Positions 48,679 through 61,656 of a DNA stretch of 64,000 nt are shown in pieces. A program made the translations under genes and the position numbers. Source of the DNA: Mycobacterium noviomagense (GTDB taxonomy: Bacteria > Actinomycetota > Actinomycetes > Mycobacteriales > Mycobacteriaceae); assembly GCF_010731635.1 (NCBI RefSeq), contig NZ_AP022583.1, forward strand, positions 2,046,001-2,110,000, written 5' to 3'. Position 1 is the stretch's first letter. The number at the start of each line of letters is the position of its first letter. The notes below the pieces were generated by a model. That model did not search any database. It saw only the letters and a program-made list of their open reading frames with translations, and was not told the origin of the DNA.

Positions 48679-49125
48679 TCAGACCGGAGCTTGGCCGAGC
48701 AGCTCAGCACGACCGATCTGGGTCACCAGACTTGCCGAATCGAAATAGATTCGCTCGTTGACGATGCGGTCAGCGTCGAAGAAAAACACCGCAACGACCG
48801 GTACCCGAAACGCCTTGCCCGTCGGCGGAAGGCCGTAGAATTCGCCGAGATTGGTGCCCAGTAGGTCGAATTCGACGATCACCGCGTCATCGGCGATGTG
48901 GTAACGGACGTTGTCGTGGCGCTGATCGGGAAACGCCGCCCGGGTGGTTCGGTAGTAACCCATGACCTCGTCGTCGCCGTCGAAAACCTGGCCCGTCGCC
49001 ATGATCTCGTAGTGCGGGTGCCCATTGAACGTGGCTAGCGTGCGGTCGAAGTCCTGGGTTACTTCGGTGTCCAGGTGCTCGCGGATGACTTCCAGCCGGC
49101 GCCGCCGCAGATCATTACTGAGCAT
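48679..49125 (-). CDS. SnoaL-like protein, last gene of the amidoligase operon
   Basis: A 148-residue NTF2/SnoaL-fold protein of the ester-cyclase-like type: RTLATFNGHPHYEIMATGQV (about 28-47), GYYRTTRAAFPDQRHDNVRY (about 56-75) and a C-terminal VVAVFFFDADRIVNERIYFD (about 108-127). SnoaL-like proteins act in polyketide aldol cyclisation, hydration or as isomerases, but many are uncharacterised. It overlaps the S9 peptidase stop by 11 bp, so it is co-translated with it. In this context it may act on the peptide product or be a binding protein. No membrane segment is present. Confidence 0.85.
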   Translation of the reverse strand: MLSNDLRRRRLEVIREHLDTEVTQDFDRTLATFNGHPHYEIMATGQVFDGDDEVMGYYRTTRAAFPDQRHDNVRYHIADDAVIVEFDLLGTNLGEFYGLPPTGKAFRVPVVAVFFFDADRIVNERIYFDSASLVTQIGRAELLGQAPV

Positions 49126-51046
49126 CGGTTACTCCTATTCGGTGAATGCCGGCACCTGGTGCCCCAGGAGTTGTCTGGGCGCTCGCGAATGCGGTGGCGA
49201 GCCACTCGCCAAGGACGGTGGCCAGTGTCTCGCGGTTTTCCCGTTTAGCGATGTCATGACCGTCGTCTTCGAATAGCAGGAAGCGCACATCTCGGCCCCG
49301 CTCACGCAGCGCCTCGACGATCTGCTCGGATTCGCTCGGCGGCACATTGGTGTCGTTGGCGCCGTGCACGACCAGCAGCGGCGCCGTCAACGCGTCGACG
49401 CGGCGCAGCGGCGACAGTTGCTCGAACAATGCGCGGTCGTGGACTGGGTGGCCGTACTCAGAAAATGCAGCCTCGGCGATCCACGGTTCGGTATTGCGGT
49501 AGAACGTGGACAGGTCGCTCATCCCGCAGATGCTGACCCCGGCGGCGAAAAGCTCCGGATGAAACGTGAGCGCAGCCAGCGTCAGAAAACCGCCGTACGA
49601 CCGGCCAGCACATGCGATCCGGTTCTCCTCGGCGAAGCCCCCCTCAATCAAAAACCGGACACAGTCGGCAACGTCATCGATCGCGGCGAAGCGTTTCTCC
49701 TTGTCGTCGGCGTGCAGAAACGACCTCCCGAATCCCCCAGAGCCCCGGACATTCGGAGTAAACACCGTGACGCCCGCATTGAGCAGGTCCGGGAAAAACT
49801 CGTCATAGCCAGGCCTGGCCTGTCCCTCCGGGCCGCCATGTAGATACACCAGCGCCCCGGCGTGCGCCACCCAGGCCGGCGGCCGGTACAGCCAACCGGT
49901 AAACGTCAGACCGTCGCGCGCGGTGATCGTCTCCAGCGTGGGCCCAGTGCTGTGTCCGGCCACCACCGGTCCGCGGCTGGGTTCGCGCTCGATGCGCACC
50001 CATTCGCGAGATCGCGGATCCACCAGTTCCACTGTCCGCGGCATCGACGGGCCCTCGACGGTGAGCGCGACCATCGAGCCCGTGGCGCTGATGGACAGTT
50101 CGCTTGCCACCGGTCCCGGCAGCGGAATCGGTTCCTGCAGCGTGTAGTCGAGGAACGACATCATCTGTAGTTCACTGACGCCGTGGAGGTTCCACAACAG
50201 TGCAACTGTGCTGAGGTCGTCGCTGACGATGAACTCGTCAAGCTCGCAGTCAGGGCGTTCGGCCACCACGTGATAGACGACGCCGTCCTCGGTGGCGGTG
50301 GCCTCCAAGAGGCGGGCACGGTCGCAGCCGTTGTCGCTGCGGACCAGACAACGCACATAACCCTGCGGACTGTTGATGTCGTAGAACTTGTGTGGGTAGA
50401 AGCGTCTGGTCTGCTCACCCGTCGGGCCACAACGTATCCGGCGTGGATGATGGTCGTCGAGGATGATGCCTGCTTCGGTATTAGATCCAGGATCCGATGG
50501 CAGCAGCGCTGTTTCAGTCAGCCCGTGCAGCAAGATCAGCTCGTGGTAGCCGCGGGGGCCGACCCGCACCAGCGACGCGCCGGCCCATGCGTCGACCAGG
50601 TGGCCACCCGAACGTTTGTCAAGCACAATACAATTGCCGTCAGACGGGTCGATCAGGCAGGACGAGCCGATACCGTTTTCTTCGGTCAGGATCGCCGCTA
50701 CCCGGGCGCCGTCCCAACCGACCAACTCGGCGGTACCATTCTCCTCCCGGTCGATTCGCCAAGCCGACGGATCGTCGGGATCGGTCGTAACCATCCAGAT
50801 CTGGGTGCAGGTGCCGCCACCGGGCGCCACCTCGCAGGCCAGCCAGCGGTCGTTGGGGGAGTGGATCACCCGAGTGACCGGACCGTCGACCGGCAGCACG
50901 ACATCACGTGAAGAGCTGGCTCGCCAGCCGCGCAAAAAGCGCTGTACCGCTCGTGGATAGCCGACGTCGTCGACGATGTGCGCGAAGACCCTCGCGTCAG
51001 GGGACAGTGACGCGCCGTAGTTCGCGCGTACGTGCCGTGTGACCAC
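49115..51046 (-). CDS. S9-family (prolyl oligopeptidase-like) serine peptidase
   Basis: A 643-residue two-domain peptidase: an N-terminal beta-propeller-like region (about 1-380) and a C-terminal alpha/beta hydrolase (about 390-640). The catalytic Ser is in ACAGRSYGGFLTLAALT (about residue 490), the Asp in LLVVHGANDTNVPP (about 575) and the His in FEDDGHDIAKREN (about 610). YLHGGPEGQARPGYDEFFP (about 430) is a typical oxyanion segment. The GTG at 51046 lies one base after the amidotransferase stop (TGA-C-GTG). An upstream frame exists but overlaps that gene. It probably cleaves or recycles the small peptide made by the operon. No signal peptide was seen. Confidence 0.88.
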   Translation of the reverse strand: MVTRHVRANYGASLSPDARVFAHIVDDVGYPRAVQRFLRGWRASSSRDVVLPVDGPVTRVIHSPNDRWLACEVAPGGGTCTQIWMVTTDPDDPSAWRIDREENGTAELVGWDGARVAAILTEENGIGSSCLIDPSDGNCIVLDKRSGGHLVDAWAGASLVRVGPRGYHELILLHGLTETALLPSDPGSNTEAGIILDDHHPRRIRCGPTGEQTRRFYPHKFYDINSPQGYVRCLVRSDNGCDRARLLEATATEDGVVYHVVAERPDCELDEFIVSDDLSTVALLWNLHGVSELQMMSFLDYTLQEPIPLPGPVASELSISATGSMVALTVEGPSMPRTVELVDPRSREWVRIEREPSRGPVVAGHSTGPTLETITARDGLTFTGWLYRPPAWVAHAGALVYLHGGPEGQARPGYDEFFPDLLNAGVTVFTPNVRGSGGFGRSFLHADDKEKRFAAIDDVADCVRFLIEGGFAEENRIACAGRSYGGFLTLAALTFHPELFAAGVSICGMSDLSTFYRNTEPWIAEAAFSEYGHPVHDRALFEQLSPLRRVDALTAPLLVVHGANDTNVPPSESEQIVEALRERGRDVRFLLFEDDGHDIAKRENRETLATVLGEWLATAFASAQTTPGAPGAGIHRIGVTDAQ

Positions 51047-51047
51047 G

Positions 51048-52829
51048 TCAGCCCGCCATGCCCTGCAGCCACATCTCCAACACCGCAAGCTGCCAGAGCG
51101 CGTTGGCATCCAGCGTGGTGCGCGTCTTGTTGGGTTCGGCCAGCAGCGCATTCACCGTTTCGGCGCGGTACAGACCCCGCGCGCGAGCAGCGTTGTCGCT
51201 CAATGCCTCCCGAACCATGTCCAGCACCGGCCCATTCAAGTGCCGAATACCCGGCACCGGGAAATAGCCTTTGGTGCGGTCGATCACCTGCGACGGCAGC
51301 AGGGCCCGCGACGCGTCCTTGAGCACACCCTTGCCGTCCGAAGCCAACTTCAATTCCGGAGGACAGGTGGCGGCCAGCTCGACGAAGTCGTGGTCCAAAA
51401 ACGGCACCCGGGCCTCCAGCCCCCACGCCATGGTCATCGTGTCGACGCGCTTGACGGGGTCTTCGACCAGCATCACCTGTGTGTCGAGCCGCAGCGCGGC
51501 GTCCACGGCGGTTTCGGCGCCGGGCGCAGACTGGTGCGCGGTCGCGAACTGACGGCTGACATCGACGTCGATTCCGTACTCGGGTGCAAAGATTTTCATC
51601 ACGTCGCTATGACTGCGGTCGAAAAATACCTTGGCGTATGCCTCGGTGGTCTGCTCGCGTGCGACGTTGGCCAGCGGCGGGTACCAGTTGTATCCGCCCA
51701 AGATCTCGTCGGCGCCCTGGCCGGACTGCACCACCTTGACCGATTTGCTCACTTCCTCCGACAGCAGATAGAACGCCACGCAGTCGTGGCTGACCATCGG
51801 TTCGCTCATGGCGGCAATGGTTTTCGGAACCGCGGGCAGCAGCCGCGAGCTGTCGATATGGATCTTGTGGTGATCGGTCTCGAAGGTCTTGGCGATCAGA
51901 TCCGAGTAGGCGTACTCGTCGCCGGATTCGCCGCCGGCAGAGTCGAACCCGATGGAGAAGGTGGCCAGCCCGTGCTGGCCCTGCTCAGCCAGCAGCGCCA
52001 CCACAATCGAGGAGTCGATGCCGCCGGAAAGCAACACTCCGACCGGCACGTCGGCGACCATCCGTCTGTGTACGGCCGTGCGCAGCGCGTCCATCAGGGC
52101 GTCCTGCCAGTCCCGTTCGGACCAGGATGCGCGATCGGGATCGCGCTCGAAGGCGGGGTTCCAGTAGACGGTGTCGGTGTGGGTGCCGTCGGGCTGGATC
52201 ACCCGGACGGTGGCTGGCGGCAGTTTGCGTACTCCCCGGTAGATCGTGCGGGGCGCGGGCACCACCGAGTGAAAGGTCATGTAGTGGTGCAGCGCGTGAC
52301 GGTCCAGTTCGGTATCCACTTCGCCGGCGTCCAGCAGCGCGCGCACCGCCGAGGCGAACCGCAACCGGCCCGGGGTTTGGGCGAGATACAGCGGCTTGAT
52401 GCCCAGCCGGTCACGGGCCAGGGTCACCACCCCGGAGTCGCGGTCGGCGATCGCGAACGCGAACATCCCTTTGAAGCGTTCCACACAGCGGGTTCCCCAG
52501 CGGTGGAACGCTTTGATCACGACCTCGCTGTCGGCGGTCGAAAAGAATTGGTAGCCAAACTTTTCCAGTTCACGGCGGAGGTCTTGGTAGTTGTAGATGC
52601 AGCCGTTGAAGACCAGCGTCAGCCCCAGGGCGCTGTCCACCATCGGTTGGGCGCCACGCGTGGACAGGTCGATGATCGACAGCCGGCGGTGTCCCAGCGC
52701 GACCGGCCCGTGTGCCACCAGGCCGTCGGAGTCCGGGCCGCGCGACCGCATCGCGTCGGCCATCCGGGCCACCGCAGCAACGTCCGCGGATCGCCCGTCG
52801 AACCGGATCTCACCGCCGATACCGCACAT
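51048..52829 (-). CDS. Asparagine-synthetase-type amidotransferase (AsnO/NAGGN-like)
   Basis: A 593-residue glutamine-dependent amidotransferase. An N-terminal class II glutaminase domain starts at Cys2 (MCGIGGEIRFDGRSADVAAV) and includes SRGPDSDGL, RRLSIIDLST and FNGCIYNYQDLR; a C-terminal PP-loop synthetase domain carries GVLLSGGIDSSIVVALLAE (about 265-283) and VVQSGQGADEILGGYNWYPP (about 365-384). The sequence style is that of TIGR03104, the amidotransferase that caps N-acetylglutaminylglutamine, rather than housekeeping AsnB. It lies 14 bp after the ligase fusion and one base before the S9 peptidase gene, so it probably amidates the ligase product. Confidence 0.92.
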   Translation of the reverse strand: MCGIGGEIRFDGRSADVAAVARMADAMRSRGPDSDGLVAHGPVALGHRRLSIIDLSTRGAQPMVDSALGLTLVFNGCIYNYQDLRRELEKFGYQFFSTADSEVVIKAFHRWGTRCVERFKGMFAFAIADRDSGVVTLARDRLGIKPLYLAQTPGRLRFASAVRALLDAGEVDTELDRHALHHYMTFHSVVPAPRTIYRGVRKLPPATVRVIQPDGTHTDTVYWNPAFERDPDRASWSERDWQDALMDALRTAVHRRMVADVPVGVLLSGGIDSSIVVALLAEQGQHGLATFSIGFDSAGGESGDEYAYSDLIAKTFETDHHKIHIDSSRLLPAVPKTIAAMSEPMVSHDCVAFYLLSEEVSKSVKVVQSGQGADEILGGYNWYPPLANVAREQTTEAYAKVFFDRSHSDVMKIFAPEYGIDVDVSRQFATAHQSAPGAETAVDAALRLDTQVMLVEDPVKRVDTMTMAWGLEARVPFLDHDFVELAATCPPELKLASDGKGVLKDASRALLPSQVIDRTKGYFPVPGIRHLNGPVLDMVREALSDNAARARGLYRAETVNALLAEPNKTRTTLDANALWQLAVLEMWLQGMAG

Positions 52830-52843
52830 TCGTGGCCGCTCCC

Positions 52844-55492
52844 TCAGGCCGGTATCGTCTGGCGGTCGCGGTGTTCCGACGCACCGGTTATCGGTTGAGT
52901 CAAAATCCAGGTGTCCTTACTGCCGCCGCCGGCTGACGAGTTGACGATCCGTGACCCCCTGCTCGCCACCCGCGTCAGCGCGGCGGGCGCGACATGGGCC
53001 GATACCGACCCACTGGGGCGTGCGCGCAAGTGTACGAATGCGCGCAGGTCGACGTGATGCGGGTACATGCCTTCCCCGTCGAAAGTCGGGTGCGTCGACA
53101 GCGCGATCAACTCCTGGGCGATGAAACGCTCTGGCTGCAGCGTCATTTCGCGGCGGCGCGCCTCCAGCGCCGCGTCGCTGGCGTCCGGACCGATCAGCAC
53201 GCCGCTGCCGCCGAGCCCGTCGATCGGCTTGACCACCAACTCGGAGAGGTGGCCCAGCACATAGTCGCGCTGGTCGCGTTCGGCGCAGATCCACGTCCGC
53301 ACTTGCGGCAGCAGCGGCTTCTCGCCGAGGTAGTACTCGATCATCGCGGGCACATACGCGTAGATCGCCTTGTCGTCGGCAACCCCGTTGCCGAGCGCGT
53401 TCACGATGCTCAGATTGCCGCCGATGACCGCGTTGAGCAATCCGGCCCGCAGCGGCCCGCCGTCGTAACCCGTCGAGGACAACAGCATGTCTTCGTCCAT
53501 CCGCGCGTAGACGACGTCGACGGGCCGGGTGCCGGTGCCGATATGACGCACCAGCCTGCGATCGCGCACCGACAGGTCGGACGGCTGCACCAACGGCACG
53601 CCCATCTCGTCCGCGAGGAACCTGTGCTCGAACCAGGCGGAGTCCTTCCAGCCGGCGGACAGCAGCGCGACGGCCGGTGCGCCGGTTGCGTGCGGCGGAC
53701 CCGCCGCGGAGAGGGTTTCCAGCAGCATCTGGGGGACGCGGTCGAGGTCGGCGATCTCCTCTGGGGGCCGCAGTTCGGGCAGGTACTTGCGCATTAACCG
53801 GCGGTTGGCAACCGCGTATGCCACTCCCGACGGCACCCGCAGGTTGTCTTCGAGCACCAGCCAGTGGCCGTCGCCGTCGCAGGCCAGATCGGTTCCGCTG
53901 ATGTGCGCGTGCACGGTGTCACCGGCCAGTCGGCCAGTCGAACGGAACCCGGGTGCGCGGTCCAGGGTCTCCATGCCGATGACCCCGTCGGCGAGAATCT
54001 GCTGAGCCGAATAGATGTCGCGCAGGAATGCGTCCAGCGCGCGGGCGCGCTGCCCGAGGCCGGTGGCCAACCGGTCCCATTCGTCGGCCGCCACCACGCG
54101 AGGCACCAGATCCAGCGGGAACACCTGGGCGCGGCTTTGACCGGTGACGCGGAACGTGATGTCCTCGGCGCGCTGCTCTTGCTCGATAGCGCCCTCCCGC
54201 GAGCGCAAGGCGGCCGCGCCGAGACTCGCCATCGTCTCAAGCACTTTGACGTAAGGGCGCCGCGGACGACCGCCGCCCACCGCTTCGTCATAACTGGCGA
54301 ACACGTCGGCGGCAAGGCCTTGGGCGGAGCGGGCGGTGGGCTGATAACCGAAGAGCAGGCTGGGATCGTCGCCGAGCGCCACACCGGCGCTGCGCCAGCC
54401 TTCGGCGGTCTCGGCGATCAGCTGGTCGACAACGTCGGTGAGCCGGCCGCGGCGGCGCAGGGCGCGGCGCTGGCGCGCCGAGGAAGTACCGGCAACGAGT
54501 GCCTGCTGCGCCAGCTCGTCCAGGATCTCCCAGTCACCGGTCGCCTCGAGCTGTGGCCGCAACGAGCACACCAGGTCGCGCACCACGTCAGCCGCGGGGC
54601 GGGCCCGCGGCCGGCTGACGTCGACCAGCACACCTTCCAGGCCGGAGCGCGCCGCACGCCACAGTGCGGCCCGCTCCAGCGTCGGGGCAATCCGCGTCGG
54701 CGCCGCACCGGCCCGCAAGCCCTCGACCTCGCGCTGCACCAGCCCGCGAAACAGCCCGGCTATCAACACGATTGTGTCCACCAGCGGGCAGCTGTCGCAC
54801 ACCCGAAGTTCCAGTGTGGGCGCCACATTCGACGGGCGGACATCGAAGTAGACCATCCCGGGGTCGCTGATCACTCCGCTGGCGATCAGGTCCGACACCA
54901 GCTTGTCGTAGTCAGCAGCGGAATCCACCGGTGGCGCCGGGCCGGTGGTCGGCCACCGCTGCCAGACCAGGGTGCGCACGCTGGAGTAGCCGGTGTCGGC
55001 GCCGTCGGCCCAAAACGGCGAGCTGACCGAAAGCGCCAGCAGCGTTGGCAGGTGCGGGGCGATCCGGTTGGCTACCTTGACGGCAACATCGCGGTCCTCG
55101 ACGCCGACATGCACCTGGGTGCCGCAGATCAGCTGTTCGCGCGCCAACAGCTGGTAGTCGGCCAGCATCTGCCGATACCTGGCGGTCTGGGTGACTTGCA
55201 TTTCGGCCGGCACCGACAACGGCATCGTGCCGGCCGCCACTATCCCGATGCCGAGTTCGGTTGCGGTCTCGACCAGCACGCGCCGGTGGCGCACCAAGTC
55301 GTCGCGCAAGCCGTCCAGGGTGTCGAAAACCCCGCTACTGACCTCGACGACGCAGCACTGCAACTCGGCGACGAAGTCGTCGGACAATTCGTCCAGCAAC
55401 TCGGGCGCGCGGGCGGTCAGGCGCCTCGTCTTCAGATCGACGAGGTGAAACTCCTCTTCGACACCCATGGTTCGCGGCGGCTCGCGTTGCAC
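52844..55492 (-). CDS. GCS2 carboxylate-amine ligase fused to circularly permuted ATP-grasp
   Basis: An 882-residue two-ligase fusion. Domain 1 (about 8-370) is a YbdK/EgtA-like glutamate-cysteine-ligase-2 fold with TMGVEEEFHLVDLKTRR at the start, CGTQVHVGVEDRDVA (about 125) and NVAPTLELRVCDSCPLVDT (about 225). Domain 2 (about 395-850) is a circularly permuted ATP-grasp with GHWLVLEDNLRVPSGVAYAV (about 540), VVKPIDGLGGSGVLIGP (about 755) and ERFIAQELIALSTHP (about 795). Each domain can join a carboxylate to an amine with ATP. The GTG at 55492 is 7 nt after a TAACAT -10, so the mRNA is probably leaderless. It is the first gene of a four-gene operon. Confidence 0.9.
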   Translation of the reverse strand: MQREPPRTMGVEEEFHLVDLKTRRLTARAPELLDELSDDFVAELQCCVVEVSSGVFDTLDGLRDDLVRHRRVLVETATELGIGIVAAGTMPLSVPAEMQVTQTARYRQMLADYQLLAREQLICGTQVHVGVEDRDVAVKVANRIAPHLPTLLALSVSSPFWADGADTGYSSVRTLVWQRWPTTGPAPPVDSAADYDKLVSDLIASGVISDPGMVYFDVRPSNVAPTLELRVCDSCPLVDTIVLIAGLFRGLVQREVEGLRAGAAPTRIAPTLERAALWRAARSGLEGVLVDVSRPRARPAADVVRDLVCSLRPQLEATGDWEILDELAQQALVAGTSSARQRRALRRRGRLTDVVDQLIAETAEGWRSAGVALGDDPSLLFGYQPTARSAQGLAADVFASYDEAVGGGRPRRPYVKVLETMASLGAAALRSREGAIEQEQRAEDITFRVTGQSRAQVFPLDLVPRVVAADEWDRLATGLGQRARALDAFLRDIYSAQQILADGVIGMETLDRAPGFRSTGRLAGDTVHAHISGTDLACDGDGHWLVLEDNLRVPSGVAYAVANRRLMRKYLPELRPPEEIADLDRVPQMLLETLSAAGPPHATGAPAVALLSAGWKDSAWFEHRFLADEMGVPLVQPSDLSVRDRRLVRHIGTGTRPVDVVYARMDEDMLLSSTGYDGGPLRAGLLNAVIGGNLSIVNALGNGVADDKAIYAYVPAMIEYYLGEKPLLPQVRTWICAERDQRDYVLGHLSELVVKPIDGLGGSGVLIGPDASDAALEARRREMTLQPERFIAQELIALSTHPTFDGEGMYPHHVDLRAFVHLRARPSGSVSAHVAPAALTRVASRGSRIVNSSAGGGSKDTWILTQPITGASEHRDRQTIPA

Positions 55493-57348: not shown

Positions 57349-58767
57349 GTGAAACGGCTGAGCGGGTGGGACGCGGTACTGCTGTACAGCGAAACGCCGA
57401 ACGTCCACATGCACACGATCAAGGTCGGGGTGATCGAGCTGGACCCGGACCGGCGTGACTTCGGCATCGACGAATTCCGGCGGGTCATCCATAGTCGGCT
57501 CTACAAGCTCGAGCCGTTCTGCTACGAGCTGGTGGAGATCCCGTACAAGTTGCACCACCCGATGTGGCGGGAGAACTGCGACGTCGACCTGACCTACCAC
57601 ATCCGCCCGTGGCGGCTGCCGGCCCCGGGAGGGCGCCGCGAGCTCGACGAGGCCATCGGCCAGATCGCCAGCACCCCGCTGGACCGCAGTCGCCCGCTGT
57701 GGGAGATGTACTTCGTCGAGGGCCTGGCCAACAACCGGATAGCGGTGGTGGGCAAGATCCACCACGCGCTCGCCGACGGCGTGGCCTCGGCCAACCTGTT
57801 GGCCCGCGGGATGGACCTCCAGCCGAACTTCGAGCCCTCTCGCCGCTCGTATGAGGCGGACCCCGCACCGACCAGGGGGCAGCTGTTGCGCTCGGCATTC
57901 GGCGATCATCTGCGACATGTCGGCCGGCTTCCGCGCACCATCGGCTACACCACGCAGGGGTTGGCCCGGGTGCGCCGCAGCTCCCGCAAACTGTCGCCGG
58001 AACTCACTCGGCCGTTCACGCCGCCACCGACGTTCATCAACCACATGCTCACTCCCGAGCGCAAATTCGCCAGCGCGACTTTGGCGTTGGCTGATGTCAA
58101 GGAGACCGGCAAGTCGCTCGGCGCCACGATCAACGACATGGTGCTGGCCATGTCAGCCGGGGCGCTGCGCACCCTGCTGCTGCGCTATGACGGCAACGCT
58201 GACCATCCGTTGCTGGCGTCGGTGCCGGTGAGCTTCGACTTCTCCCCGGAGCGGGTTTCCGGCAACTACTTCACCGGGATGCTGGTGGCGCTGCCCGTCG
58301 ACCTCGAGGACCCGTTGGAGCGGACGCGGCTGTGCCATGAAAACGCTGTGTCCGCCAAGGAAAGTCACCAGCTGATGGGACCAGAGCTGGTCAGCCGCTG
58401 GGCCGCCTACTTCCCGCCGGCACCGACCGAGGCTTTCTTCCGGTGGCTGGCCGGCCGCGACGGGCAGAACAAAATCCTGAACCTGAACATCTCCAATGTT
58501 CCCGGTCCGCGCGAGCGCGGCCGGGTCGGCGGTGCGCTGGTCACCGAAATCTATTCGGTGGGACCGCTGACTGCCGGCAGCGGGCTGAACATCACCGTGT
58601 GGAGTTATGTCGATCAGCTCAACATCTCGGTGCTGACCGATGGTGCCACCCTCAAGGACCCTCACGAGGTGACCGACGCGATGATCGATACCTTCGTGGA
58701 AATACGCAGGGCTGCAGGGCTTTCCGAAAAGCTGACCGTTGTCGAGACCGCGATGGCGCAGGCCTAG
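57349..58767 (+). CDS. Wax ester synthase/diacylglycerol acyltransferase (WS/DGAT), Rv0221-like
   Basis: Makes triacylglycerol or wax esters from acyl-CoA and diacylglycerol or a fatty alcohol, at the membrane. It is 472 residues, against 469 in Rv0221. The catalytic motif HHALADG is in GKIHHALADGVASANLL (about residue 137). NDMVLAMSAGALRTLLLRYD (about 265) and the C-terminal NLNISNVPGPRERGRVGGAL (about 380) are family hallmarks. The GTG at 57349 (VKRLSGWDAVLL) is 7 nt after AGGAAGG and matches the homologue start. Its stop overlaps the convergent lipO-like gene by four bases (CTAG). Confidence 0.95.
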   Translation: MKRLSGWDAVLLYSETPNVHMHTIKVGVIELDPDRRDFGIDEFRRVIHSRLYKLEPFCYELVEIPYKLHHPMWRENCDVDLTYHIRPWRLPAPGGRRELDEAIGQIASTPLDRSRPLWEMYFVEGLANNRIAVVGKIHHALADGVASANLLARGMDLQPNFEPSRRSYEADPAPTRGQLLRSAFGDHLRHVGRLPRTIGYTTQGLARVRRSSRKLSPELTRPFTPPPTFINHMLTPERKFASATLALADVKETGKSLGATINDMVLAMSAGALRTLLLRYDGNADHPLLASVPVSFDFSPERVSGNYFTGMLVALPVDLEDPLERTRLCHENAVSAKESHQLMGPELVSRWAAYFPPAPTEAFFRWLAGRDGQNKILNLNISNVPGPRERGRVGGALVTEIYSVGPLTAGSGLNITVWSYVDQLNISVLTDGATLKDPHEVTDAMIDTFVEIRRAAGLSEKLTVVETAMAQA

Positions 58768-59999
58768 CGGCGCGACGTCGCGTAGACCCACGACAGAAAA
58801 CGCCCAATCGCCGTAGCGCTGTGGCGGGCGCGGGGGGACCCGAAAATGTCGAAAGCGTGCTGGGCGCCCGGCAATTCCGCATAGGCGACGGGCGAGGTCG
58901 ACACCTCGCGCAGTGCACTGACGAAATCACGCGCCTCGGACACCGGAATCAGCGAGTCATCGCGCCCGTGCAGCACGAAAAACGGTGGCGCACCCGAGGA
59001 TAAGCGTTTGATCGGCGACGCGTCGAGAAATATCTGCGGATCATCGGCTCGTCGGCGCTTGACGACGAACCGCTCCAGAAACGCGATGAACTCGGCTCGT
59101 CCCGCGCCGTCCGTGGAGAACCAGTCATAGCGCCCGTACACCGGCACCGCAGCCACCACCGAGATGTCGACGTCGGCGAACCCGGGCTGGAACCGCGGAT
59201 CGTTGGGCGTCAGCGCTGCCAGCGCTGCCAGGTGTCCGCCCGCCGACTCGCCGGTGAGCACCACGAAGTTCGGATCGCCGCCGGCGTCGGCGATGTTCTG
59301 CTTGACCCAGGCCAATGCCCGCTTGACGTCGACGATGTGATCCGGCCAGGTGTGCGCCGGGCTGACCCGGTAGTCGATCGACACGCATACCCAGCCGCTC
59401 GCGGCGAGATATCCCAACAGCGGGTAGCCCTGCCCGCGCCGCCAGCCCAACACCCACGCCCCGCCCGGGATGTGCACCAGCACCGGTGCGTGTCCGTCGC
59501 GCGGCAGGTCGCGGCGGCGCCAGATGTCGAGCGTGTTCGCGCGGCCATGCGGACCATAGCGGACAGTGGCCGTTTTCTCCACATATGTGCGGCGGGCCAA
59601 GCCGGTGCGCAACACACCTGTCGGGCGCGCTATGCGCGTGGCCGTATTCGATTGGACCGCACGGTAATCCGGGCCTAGCGCGTCACGCAGTGCCGCGTCG
59701 AGATACGGTGCCGACCGGACACCGCGGCGGTGGATGACCCACAACATCACCCATGCGACCACGGTCAGGCACAAGGCCAGACGACCCGGCACGCCGGCGA
59801 AGTCGCCGCGGCGGGCGCGGCGCAGCGCGTCGAGCAGCGAGCCGCCCAGCAGCCACGGCGCCAGCTCGGTGGTGGGCCAGCCCACCGCGAACACCGGAAT
59901 CGTGACGTAGCCCTGGCGTGCCAGCGGCCGTAATCCGTTGGCGGCGTTGGCCAGTTCGGCGGCCGCGCGAAGCACGGTGCGGCTCGGATGGGTTGTCAC
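58764..59999 (-). CDS. Alpha/beta-hydrolase lipase, LipO (Rv1426c)-like
   Basis: A 411-residue esterase related to LipC. One transmembrane helix (about 75-95, LALCLTVVAWVMLWVIHR) anchors it, and the hydrolase domain follows. The oxyanion motif is HIPGGAWVLGWRRG (about 178-191), the nucleophile elbow LTGESAGGHLAALAAL (Ser about 252), the Asp VLHGRDDSLIPVSEA (about 345) and the His GAQHAFDIFG (about 380). The GTG at 59999 is 7 nt after the fadD12-like stop; frames further upstream overlap that gene. Gene order with the FadD12-like ligase and the acyltransferase matches Rv1426c-Rv1428c. Confidence 0.88.
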   Translation of the reverse strand: MTTHPSRTVLRAAAELANAANGLRPLARQGYVTIPVFAVGWPTTELAPWLLGGSLLDALRRARRGDFAGVPGRLALCLTVVAWVMLWVIHRRGVRSAPYLDAALRDALGPDYRAVQSNTATRIARPTGVLRTGLARRTYVEKTATVRYGPHGRANTLDIWRRRDLPRDGHAPVLVHIPGGAWVLGWRRGQGYPLLGYLAASGWVCVSIDYRVSPAHTWPDHIVDVKRALAWVKQNIADAGGDPNFVVLTGESAGGHLAALAALTPNDPRFQPGFADVDISVVAAVPVYGRYDWFSTDGAGRAEFIAFLERFVVKRRRADDPQIFLDASPIKRLSSGAPPFFVLHGRDDSLIPVSEARDFVSALREVSTSPVAYAELPGAQHAFDIFGSPRARHSATAIGRFLSWVYATSRR

Positions 60000-60006
60000 G
60001 AAGCCG

Positions 60007-61656
60007 CTAGCCGGCGTTTCCGATCCGGGCAAGCAGCTCGCCGCGATGGATCTTGCCGGTGCTGCTGCGGGGCAGCTCGTCGAGGACCACGATCTCGCGG
60101 GGCACCTTGTAGTTGGCGAGGTTGTCGCGCACGTGCTGCTTGAGGTCATCCGGGGTGGCCGAGGCGCCGCTGGTCAGCACGACGAACGCCGCCAACCGTT
60201 GGCCGTATTGGTCGTCGTCGACCCCGAGCACCGCGGCCTCGTCGACCTCGGGATGGGCGGTCAGGGTCTTCTCCACCTCGATCGGATAGACGTTTTCCCC
60301 GCCGGAGACGATCATCTCGTCGTCGCGGCCCACGACGTAGAGCCGTCCGGCTTCGTCGAGGCGGCCGACGTCGCCGGAGGCCATGAATCCGTCGTGGAAG
60401 TCTTTGGTGGAGCACGTCGTATAGCCGTCGAACAGACTGGTGTTGCGCACGAAGATCTGACCGACCTCGCCGGTGGGCACCGGGCGGAACTCCGAATCCA
60501 GAATGCGAATCTCGGTCCCGGGCGCGGGCTTTCCCGCGGTGTCGGGTGCTGCCCGCAGATCCTCGGGAGTCGCCGTGGCGATCATGCCGGCCTCGGTTGC
60601 GTTGTAGTTGTTGTAGATCACGTCGCCGAACTCGTCCATGAACTTAGTGACGACGTCGGGGCGCATCCGCGAACCCGACGCGGTGGCGAACCGCAACGAT
60701 CGTCCGCTGTACTTGCGGCGCACCTCGTCGGGCAGTTCCATGATCCGGTCGAACATCACCGGCACCACGCACAGTCCGGTGGCCTGGTAGCGGTCGATGA
60801 GCTCGAGGGTGGCTTCCGGGTCGAACTTGCGTCGGGTTACCACGGTGCAACCCAGCGATGCGGCGAACACGAGCTGCGAGAACCCCCAGGCGTGAAACAT
60901 CGGCGCCACCACTACCGTCGTCTCCTCAGCGCGCCACGGCACCCGGTCTAGGATCGCTTTGAGTTCGCTGGTCCCACCGCCGGAACGCTTGGCGCCCTTG
61001 GGGCTTCCGGTAGTTCCCGACGTCAGCAGGATCAGTTTCCCCTTCTGCTGCGGCCTGGCCGGCCGCTCGCCGCTGTGCGCGGCAATGAGCTTTTCGACGG
61101 TCAGCTCGTGGTTGTCCGGATCATCCGTCCACGCAACGACGCGTGTGGTGTCCGGCCGGTCGGTCAGCGCGCGATCCACCGAGCCGGTGAACTCCTCGTC
61201 ATAGATGATCGCGTCGGCGCCTTCCCGCTCGACGACCTCCGCCAGCGCGGGCCCGGCGAACGAGGTATTGAGCAACAGCACGTCGGCGCCGAGCCGGTTG
61301 GCGGCAACCAACGCCTCGACGAACCCGCGATGGTTGCGGCACATGATCGCGATGACCGGAGGGCTGCCGCCCGGTAATGCCTGCAGCGCCGCCGCCAACG
61401 CGTCGCAGCGCTGGTCGAGTTCGCGGTAGGTGAGCGTGCCCAGCTCGTCGATCAGCGCCGGGCGGTCGGGGCAGCGCTGCGCCGACATCGCGACGCCGCT
61501 TGTCATCGACATGCGCTCGCGGCGTCCTGCCGCGGCGATCCGAAGATACTTGTCCGGCCGCAGGGGTGCGATGATCCGCGCCCGGGCCAAAGTGCTGAGC
61601 AGACCGCCGATTTCGGTGAAGCGGGTCAGCGCGCTCGGGCCTGCCATCGCAGCCAC
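60007..61656 (-). CDS. fadD12: Fatty acyl-CoA ligase, FadD12-like
   Basis: A 549-residue ANL-superfamily acyl-CoA synthetase; remembered order and size (Rv1427c, 535) support the name. AMP-binding motif LLTSGTTGSPKGAKRSGGG (about 210-228), YNNYNATEAGMIATATPEDL (about 345-364), the hinge DEAGRLYVVGRDDEMIVSGG (about 430-449) and the C-terminal Lys in LPRSSTGKIHRGEL (about 530) are present. It supplies acyl-CoA, plausibly to the neighbouring acyltransferase and WS/DGAT. The GTG at 61656 and the ATG at 61647 are both possible starts. The acyltransferase stop is 4 nt upstream, so they are one operon. Confidence 0.9.
   Translation of the reverse strand: MAAMAGPSALTRFTEIGGLLSTLARARIIAPLRPDKYLRIAAAGRRERMSMTSGVAMSAQRCPDRPALIDELGTLTYRELDQRCDALAAALQALPGGSPPVIAIMCRNHRGFVEALVAANRLGADVLLLNTSFAGPALAEVVEREGADAIIYDEEFTGSVDRALTDRPDTTRVVAWTDDPDNHELTVEKLIAAHSGERPARPQQKGKLILLTSGTTGSPKGAKRSGGGTSELKAILDRVPWRAEETTVVVAPMFHAWGFSQLVFAASLGCTVVTRRKFDPEATLELIDRYQATGLCVVPVMFDRIMELPDEVRRKYSGRSLRFATASGSRMRPDVVTKFMDEFGDVIYNNYNATEAGMIATATPEDLRAAPDTAGKPAPGTEIRILDSEFRPVPTGEVGQIFVRNTSLFDGYTTCSTKDFHDGFMASGDVGRLDEAGRLYVVGRDDEMIVSGGENVYPIEVEKTLTAHPEVDEAAVLGVDDDQYGQRLAAFVVLTSGASATPDDLKQHVRDNLANYKVPREIVVLDELPRSSTGKIHRGELLARIGNAG

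Follow-up and report, generated by a model that had tools for sequence, protein, structure and literature searches.

What does an AsnO-type amidotransferase make when the synthetase that usually accompanies it is missing from the genome? This question is raised by an operon in a stretch of 64,000 nucleotides of Mycobacterium noviomagense DNA (the window), in which the amidotransferase gene lies between the gene of a two-ligase fusion, joining a GCS2 domain to a circularly permuted ATP-grasp (CPAG) domain, and that of an S9 hydrolase. AsnO is known from the synthesis of N-acetylglutaminylglutamine amide (NAGGN), together with the synthetase Ngg and an M42 peptidase. Our analysis shows that one AsnO lineage is linked to a GCS2 ligase, mostly CPAG-fused, and an S9 hydrolase instead of Ngg and M42. 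We lean, with modest confidence, towards reading the fusion-AsnO-S9 core as a second pathway for AsnO-capped short peptides, the product of which would likely be a compatible solute or protectant acting inside the cell and distinct from NAGGN.

A sequence-only reading of the window had described four minus-strand genes, spaced by a 14-bp gap, a 1-bp gap and an 11-bp overlap, and encoding GCS2 plus permuted ATP-grasp in one open reading frame (ORF), an amidotransferase, an S9 peptidase and a SnoaL-like protein. The arrangement proved correct throughout, and the domain calls were confirmed by Pfam profiles:

52844..55492, minus strand: GCS2-CPAG two-ligase fusion, 882 aa; start GTG 55492 or ATG at Met9
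54638..55465, minus strand: GCS2 domain (YbdK-like carboxylate-amine ligase), residues 10-285 of the fusion; Pfam PF04107, 184 bits
52964..54103, minus strand: CP_ATPgrasp_2 domain (circularly permuted ATP-grasp type 2), residues 464-843 of the fusion; Pfam PF14403, 413 bits (cut-off 32)
51048..52829, minus strand: AsnO-type glutamine amidotransferase, 593 aa; Pfam GATase_7 and Asn_synthase; TIGR03104, 966 bits
49115..51046, minus strand: S9 alpha/beta-hydrolase peptidase; Pfam PF00326 (Peptidase_S9), 163 bits; likely start GTG 51046
48679..49125, minus strand: SnoaL-like protein, accessory; Pfam SnoaL, 61 bits

The S9 start at GTG 51046 sits 1 bp past the AsnO TGA; the longest S9 ORF (678 aa) opens at 51151.

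Is the amidotransferase indeed of the AsnO type? It scores far above the TIGR03104 cut-off of 570 bits, as compared with 442 bits against TIGR01536 (general asparagine synthase), and carries the Cys2 glutaminase, an SGGIDSS PP-loop, an SGQGADE motif and K520, which we take, from AsnB and beta-lactam synthetase, to be the catalytic lysine. The best fold matches of its model (85.7) are the hydroxyamidotransferase TsnB9 and AsnB. A housekeeping AsnB identity was nevertheless rejected, in agreement with the sequence-only reading, since TIGR03104 outscores TIGR01536 and an AsnB-like ORF of the same genome (L002), serving as outgroup, lies far off in a 93-row tree. Residue 371 (51717-51719, minus strand) is the Gln of SGQGADE in all 146 AsnOs counted and Glu in that AsnB-like ORF. 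As to the usual partners, the best match to Ngg (TIGR03103) in the M. noviomagense genome reaches 33.5 bits against a cut-off of 569, and the M42 peptidase model TIGR03106, which finds the gene beside Ngg in two other loci (L122 and L214), has no match in this genome at E 0.001.

The core is conserved well beyond this species. When a collection of 84,980 species, each represented by a single genome, was scanned for the fusion, 137 stretches were confirmed, and the 80 best of them were retained for analysis. At 76 of these 80 loci, all from other genomes, an AsnO homologue lies downstream of the fusion in the same orientation, either immediately or no more than about 2.5 kb away. Members of Mycobacterium, Nocardiaceae, Frankia, Pseudonocardia and Actinomycetospora share the fusion-AsnO-S9 core; Rhodococcus aetherivorans DSM 44752 (L016) is one carrier of the full set. 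With loci from a class survey and plasmids added, some genomes being entered twice, 153 AsnO-type loci were classified by partner, which is the fusion at 96, Ngg at 39, a stand-alone GCS2 with S9 at 10 and S9 only at 4; three others are without partner (the AsnB-like outgroup, L123 and L194) and one ends at a contig end. A same-strand S9 gene was found up to 3.5 kb away at 85/96 fusion loci versus 0/39 Ngg loci, and neither GCS2 nor CPAG was found in that range at any Ngg locus; a weak S9 match occurs about 5 kb from one of them (L131). A GNAT acetyltransferase gene accompanies 25/96 fusion operons, all of the Frankia group, and an M20 amidohydrolase gene is present at 5/96. The joint conservation proposed for all four genes therefore holds for fusion, AsnO and S9 and fails for SnoaL: a SnoaL relative above 40 bits was seen at 1/80 fusion loci (L051, upstream, opposite strand) and at 0/20 loci of a second set. 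SnoaL was accordingly rejected as a core member of the operon; its gene is a local addition.

Two plasmid loci were noticed besides. On a Streptomyces plasmid (L193, 5001-9091), AsnO is followed by an S9 peptidase with no annotated ligase in the stretch. A Polaromonas plasmid (L194, 4001-5833) carries a gene named N-acetylglutaminylglutamine amidotransferase among transaldolase, phosphoglucomutase and phosphoketolase genes; none of the genes in this stretch is named ngg.

How often did AsnO change its partner? In a tree of 58 AsnOs with four proteobacterial sequences as the root, all 33 sampled fusion-, GCS2- and S9-linked AsnOs form one clade (support 100/99) inside the Ngg-linked AsnOs, although support is lower (83-88) for some of the inner branches that position it within the actinobacterial Ngg-linked lineages. 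The 93-row tree concurs, requiring a single change between the Ngg and non-Ngg labels, and places L123, which has no recognised partner, inside the non-Ngg clade and L194 outside it. A single non-Ngg clade within Ngg-linked AsnOs implies, as far as the sample shows, one partner switch by an AsnO that had been partnered with Ngg.

The switch goes along with residues close to the synthetase motifs that are specific to each group, as a comparison of 39 Ngg-linked with 108 other AsnOs (S. meliloti-type sequences included) revealed. H381, six residues past the invariant E375 of SGQGADE, is present in 39/39 Ngg-linked AsnOs versus 7/108 others, which mostly have D, S or N. R570 occurs in 108/108 others, including 10/10 of the GCS2-only type, and in 0/39 Ngg-linked sequences, which have L or I. 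P572 and G575 are each found in 39/39 Ngg-linked AsnOs and are rare otherwise, being replaced mostly by T or N and by A or S, respectively. Position 574 changes from R to G (D in M. noviomagense), and at positions 528 and 529, eight to nine residues past the invariant K520, L gives way to I and K or T to R. Over residues 570-575 the pattern is thus L-T-P-L-R-G in Ngg-linked AsnOs versus R-T-x-L-G-[AS] in the others. The M. noviomagense enzyme has N381, I528, R529, R570, T571, T572, L573 and A575, and so is without the Ngg-type H381, P572 and G575, a feature derived in this analysis and not an established criterion. With these residues missing and the tests for Ngg and M42 negative, the operon was not filed as a NAGGN system, and its product, as had been supposed from the window alone, is probably different from NAGGN.

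Could the fusion instead have taken over from Ngg by non-orthologous displacement, with NAGGN still being made and acetylated by a GNAT encoded nearby (Frankia) or at a distance? The AsnOs of the two systems are about 60-66% identical, with scores far above the TIGR03104 cut-off, a hydrolase gene goes with both systems, and the GNAT gene beside Frankia-group operons would fit. Among 246 genomes sampled across the class, 74 exceed the cut-off of TIGR03104 and 41 that of TIGR03103, with 40 exceeding both. The 34 AsnO genomes without Ngg comprise 22 with the fusion (three split or cut), 9 with stand-alone GCS2 and S9, and 3 with only S9 near AsnO. Hence, Ngg and fusion are mutually exclusive among AsnO genomes of this sample (both 0, Ngg 40, fusion 22, neither 12), which also fits replacement. 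The 205 class genomes without Ngg divide into AsnO and fusion 22, AsnO only 12, fusion only 5 and neither 166, an association between AsnO and fusion with a Fisher p of 1.6e-16 when genomes, though related, are treated as independent.

The genus sample of 148 genomes gives a different picture. TIGR03103 is matched in 114 genomes (113 above the cut-off), TIGR03104 in 103 and the full fusion in 8, a further genome having the CPAG half at a contig end. Five of the eight (G247, G294, G343, G363 and G375) carry both systems, with one AsnO beside Ngg and one beside the fusion; the paired AsnOs are 60-62% identical, each has the residues of its own partner type, and S9 is present in four of the five. 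In G249, a fragmented genome, Ngg and the fusion occur together with a single AsnO, which is of the fusion type, and M. noviomagense and G374 (2/8) have the fusion system only. Since both systems stand side by side in five genomes with separate AsnOs, the fusion is unlikely to be a mere substitute for Ngg, and simple replacement was rejected as the whole story. The proposal that a two-ligase fusion replaces the synthetase thus describes M. noviomagense, where Ngg is absent and the fusion lies beside AsnO, and does not extend to these five relatives. Displacement is further disfavored by the AsnO residues that vary with the partner and by the Frankia GNAT: no relative of it was found at the mycobacterial loci examined, a search that did not cover other GNATs, and one Frankia GNAT compared with one Ngg gave no significant BLASTP match (E 0.18), though both match Pfam Acetyltransf_1. 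Altogether, we hold continued NAGGN synthesis by the fusion to be unlikely.

In the same sample, 13/148 genomes match Ngg and yet give no hit to TIGR03104 at E 1e-200, a count from which broken or cut AsnOs could have escaped; at L228, L229 and L230 (G309, G250 and G351), Ngg has no AsnO nearby. Such genomes may make unamidated N-acetylglutaminylglutamine.

What could the fusion make? Both ligase domains keep conserved active-site-type residues, as the sequence-only reading presupposed: among 31 aligned fusions, E12-E14, E50, H128, R219, E228 and R230 are invariant in the GCS2 half, and D535, E548, N550, K755, the glycine loop G759/761/762/764, Q793 and R817 in the CPAG half. The fusion scores 269 bits against TIGR02050 (cut-off 176), and its AlphaFold2 model (mean pLDDT 84.7, pTM 0.77) matches the folds of 3n6x, YbdK, glutathione synthetases and plant glutamate-cysteine ligase. 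YbdK (1r8g, TM 0.85 by target length) and plant glutamate-cysteine ligase correspond to the GCS2 half, and 3n6x (40% identity in the fold match, 333 bits by sequence) and glutathione synthetases to the CPAG half. These matches suggest a glutathione-like order of two ligations, without proving it; no NCBIfam model of a bifunctional glutathione synthase (GshA/GshB fusion) is among the 9 families matched by the fusion. The hydrolase best matches, by sequence in the PDB, 5l8s (amino acyl peptidase), followed by 7c72 (prolyl oligopeptidase) and acylamino-acid-releasing enzymes (2qzp). It shows the GRSYGG serine 518, GAND 597-600 and DDGHD from 629 (numbering of the 678-aa ORF), and resembles acylaminoacyl peptidases.

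We thus propose that the GCS2 domain would activate a carboxylate, with the gamma-carboxylate of Glu as the likeliest candidate, and couple an amino acid to it. Like glutathione synthetase acting on gamma-Glu-Cys, the CPAG domain would attach another residue or an amine. AsnO would then transfer glutamine-derived ammonia to the terminal carboxylate, and the S9 hydrolase may cleave the peptide once it is no longer needed, as suggested for the NAGGN-cluster peptidase; in Frankia-type loci the separate GNAT gene may supply an acetyl cap. The product of the fusion would, on this reading, be a short, probably gamma-glutamyl peptide. More tentatively, and with rather less than even confidence, we suggest that actinomycetes contain undescribed intracellular gamma-glutamyl peptide amides, namely gamma-Glu-X-NH2 where GCS2 acts alone and gamma-Glu-X-Y-NH2 or a similarly extended form where the fusion acts, N-acetylated in Frankia, which in some genomes would occur beside NAGGN with a dedicated AsnO and S9.

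The GCS2 domain tree is too loosely resolved to order CPAG gain and loss. Stand-alone mycobacterial GCS2s (L190 5998-7137 on an M. branderi plasmid, L225, L226 and L227) are 68-71% identical to the GCS2 half of the fusion and nest among mycobacterial fusions with moderate support; the plasmid copy lies near CsbD and DUF6131/DUF5994 genes.

The same fold matches raise the question whether the product is redox-active, the fusion working as glutamate-cysteine ligase and then glutathione synthetase, and AsnO yielding a glutathione-amide-like thiol. The order of activities is like that of these two enzymes, and the neighborhood of some loci adds to this. Upstream families were counted within 3 kb at the 70 loci with a called fusion gene, representatives only being annotated; the commonest are a LysR regulator (10/70) and an AhpC/TSA peroxiredoxin (9/70), with a CMD (AhpD-like) gene nearby at 4/70. 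LysR and peroxiredoxin were seen in Frankia-group loci only, where, as in L026 (928-3097), LysR reads towards the fusion and the divergent peroxiredoxin, sometimes with CMD, lies just upstream. This restriction speaks against a redox-active product, as do the GCS2-only variants and the descent of the amidotransferase from a NAGGN-type enzyme in the AsnO tree; moreover, actinomycetes use mycothiol. We therefore regard a glutathione-amide-like product as quite improbable. Glutathione amide itself exists in purple sulfur bacteria, according to passages of PMC8877833; those of PMC4213376 report that it was not found in A. vinosum.

Action on protein side chains has been proposed for other CPAG systems, and CPAG homologues outside the operon are common in actinomycetes. 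The ligases could accordingly tag or modify proteins, S9 stripping the tag. However, no small carrier protein is encoded in the conserved core, the neighbors having been annotated in part, and characterised AsnO relatives act on a free dipeptide, as passages of PMC8070244 describe; such tagging seems highly improbable.

Several observations weigh against an AsnO-capped peptide pathway as the reading of the core, among them the class-sample exclusivity of Ngg and fusion and the redox context in Frankia. AsnO is missing at 4/80 fusion loci (L010, L022, L023 and L037), and in one actinomycete family (f29) the fusion is directly followed by S9 without AsnO (L179, L181, L182 and L183); G064 moreover carries Ngg but no TIGR03104 match. 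GCS2 occurs without CPAG at 10/153 loci, and 6/10 of the GCS2-only AsnOs retain the Ngg-type H381. In the dual genome G247, fusion and AsnO lack S9 (L213). Because of these GCS2-only, AsnO-less and S9-less variants, no single product fits all loci. Furthermore, an MFS/ATG22-type gene lies upstream in 3 mycobacterial loci, so that the product might instead be exported.

Beyond the three core genes, no neighbor in the 70-locus upstream count is common to the lineages; others are lineage-specific, such as a TENA-like gene in 5 Pseudonocardia loci and DUF4442 in 4 Gordonia/Williamsia-type loci. The esterases (lipW/lipC-like) flanking the operon were found in the M. noviomagense genome only: the pair was seen at none of 9 further same-genus loci that carry all or part of the operon and at none of 7 mycobacterial loci (L006-L012), several of these loci being cut short by contig ends. 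A fixed chromosomal position was rejected. In M. noviomagense the operon may sit, as the sequence-only reading proposed, where Rv0218-Rv0219 lie in M. tuberculosis. Elsewhere in the window, an ARAGORN call of tRNA-Ala (ggc) at 59172-59253 (minus strand) lies inside a long hydrolase ORF (58764-60149, minus strand) and is probably false.

As 34/74 AsnO genomes of the class sample are without Ngg, predicting the NAGGN osmolyte from an AsnO annotation is unreliable for them. With its three defined genes, the set can serve as a test case for a new small peptide. Since some cells hold two AsnO paralogues, and a short list of residues tracks the partner, the acceptor specificity of AsnO can be tested directly. 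The operon also offers a re-reading of an odd 'Ngg' reported in Frankia.

Judged by titles and abstract openings among the matches listed, a fusion-AsnO-S9 unit was not found described in the open-licence literature. The 2009 amidoligase survey of Iyer et al. reportedly covered such ligases and may already list a GCS2-CPAG fusion. In the fusion, as in the bifunctional glutathione synthetase (PDB 3ln7), a single polypeptide carries a domain with the glutamate-cysteine-ligase fold and, after it, an ATP-grasp-type ligase; the fusion differs in combining a GCS2/YbdK-like domain with circularly permuted ATP-grasp type 2, and in being followed by an amidotransferase. From CPAG proteins such as 3n6x it is set apart by its fusion to GCS2 and its linkage to AsnO and S9.

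Passages of PMC5563000 describe an 'asnO-ngg' cluster of Casuarina Frankia in the order asnO - dipeptidase - 'ngg', with an 'ngg' less than 15% identical to known Ngg and a peptidase proposed to balance the NAGGN pool. This order fits the AsnO - S9 - GNAT order of our Frankia loci, which are from other strains than those reported; the role of ligase, however, would fall to the fusion upstream, which goes unnamed in the passages on the cluster. By this analogy of gene order, the reported 'ngg' may be the separate GNAT gene. Passages of a Frankia alni study with polyethylene glycol (PMC5768760) assign FRAAL1888 and FRAAL2171 to NAGGN; these genes were not matched to our loci, and their induction is not used as evidence.

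In the NAGGN system itself, defined by Ngg (TIGR03103), AsnO (TIGR03104) and M42 (TIGR03106), annotated records show AsnO - ngg - M42 in Azospirillum, M42 in front in Haematobacter and a mechanosensitive channel gene behind ngg in Shinella. Deletion of the Pseudomonas aeruginosa operon causes an osmotic growth defect, according to passages of PMC8070244, and those of PMC8146288 report NAGGN in Micromonospora with predicted asnO and ngg. The present operon has neither Ngg nor the TIGR03106 peptidase, having the GCS2-CPAG fusion and S9 instead; its AsnO residues differ, and some genomes hold both systems. Common to the two are an AsnO-type amidotransferase of closely related sequence and, as its neighbors, a peptide ligase and a peptidase. 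By its gene content, the unit would thus work like the NAGGN system, through ligase, amidation and hydrolase, as a variant of AsnO-dependent synthesis of amide-capped peptides.

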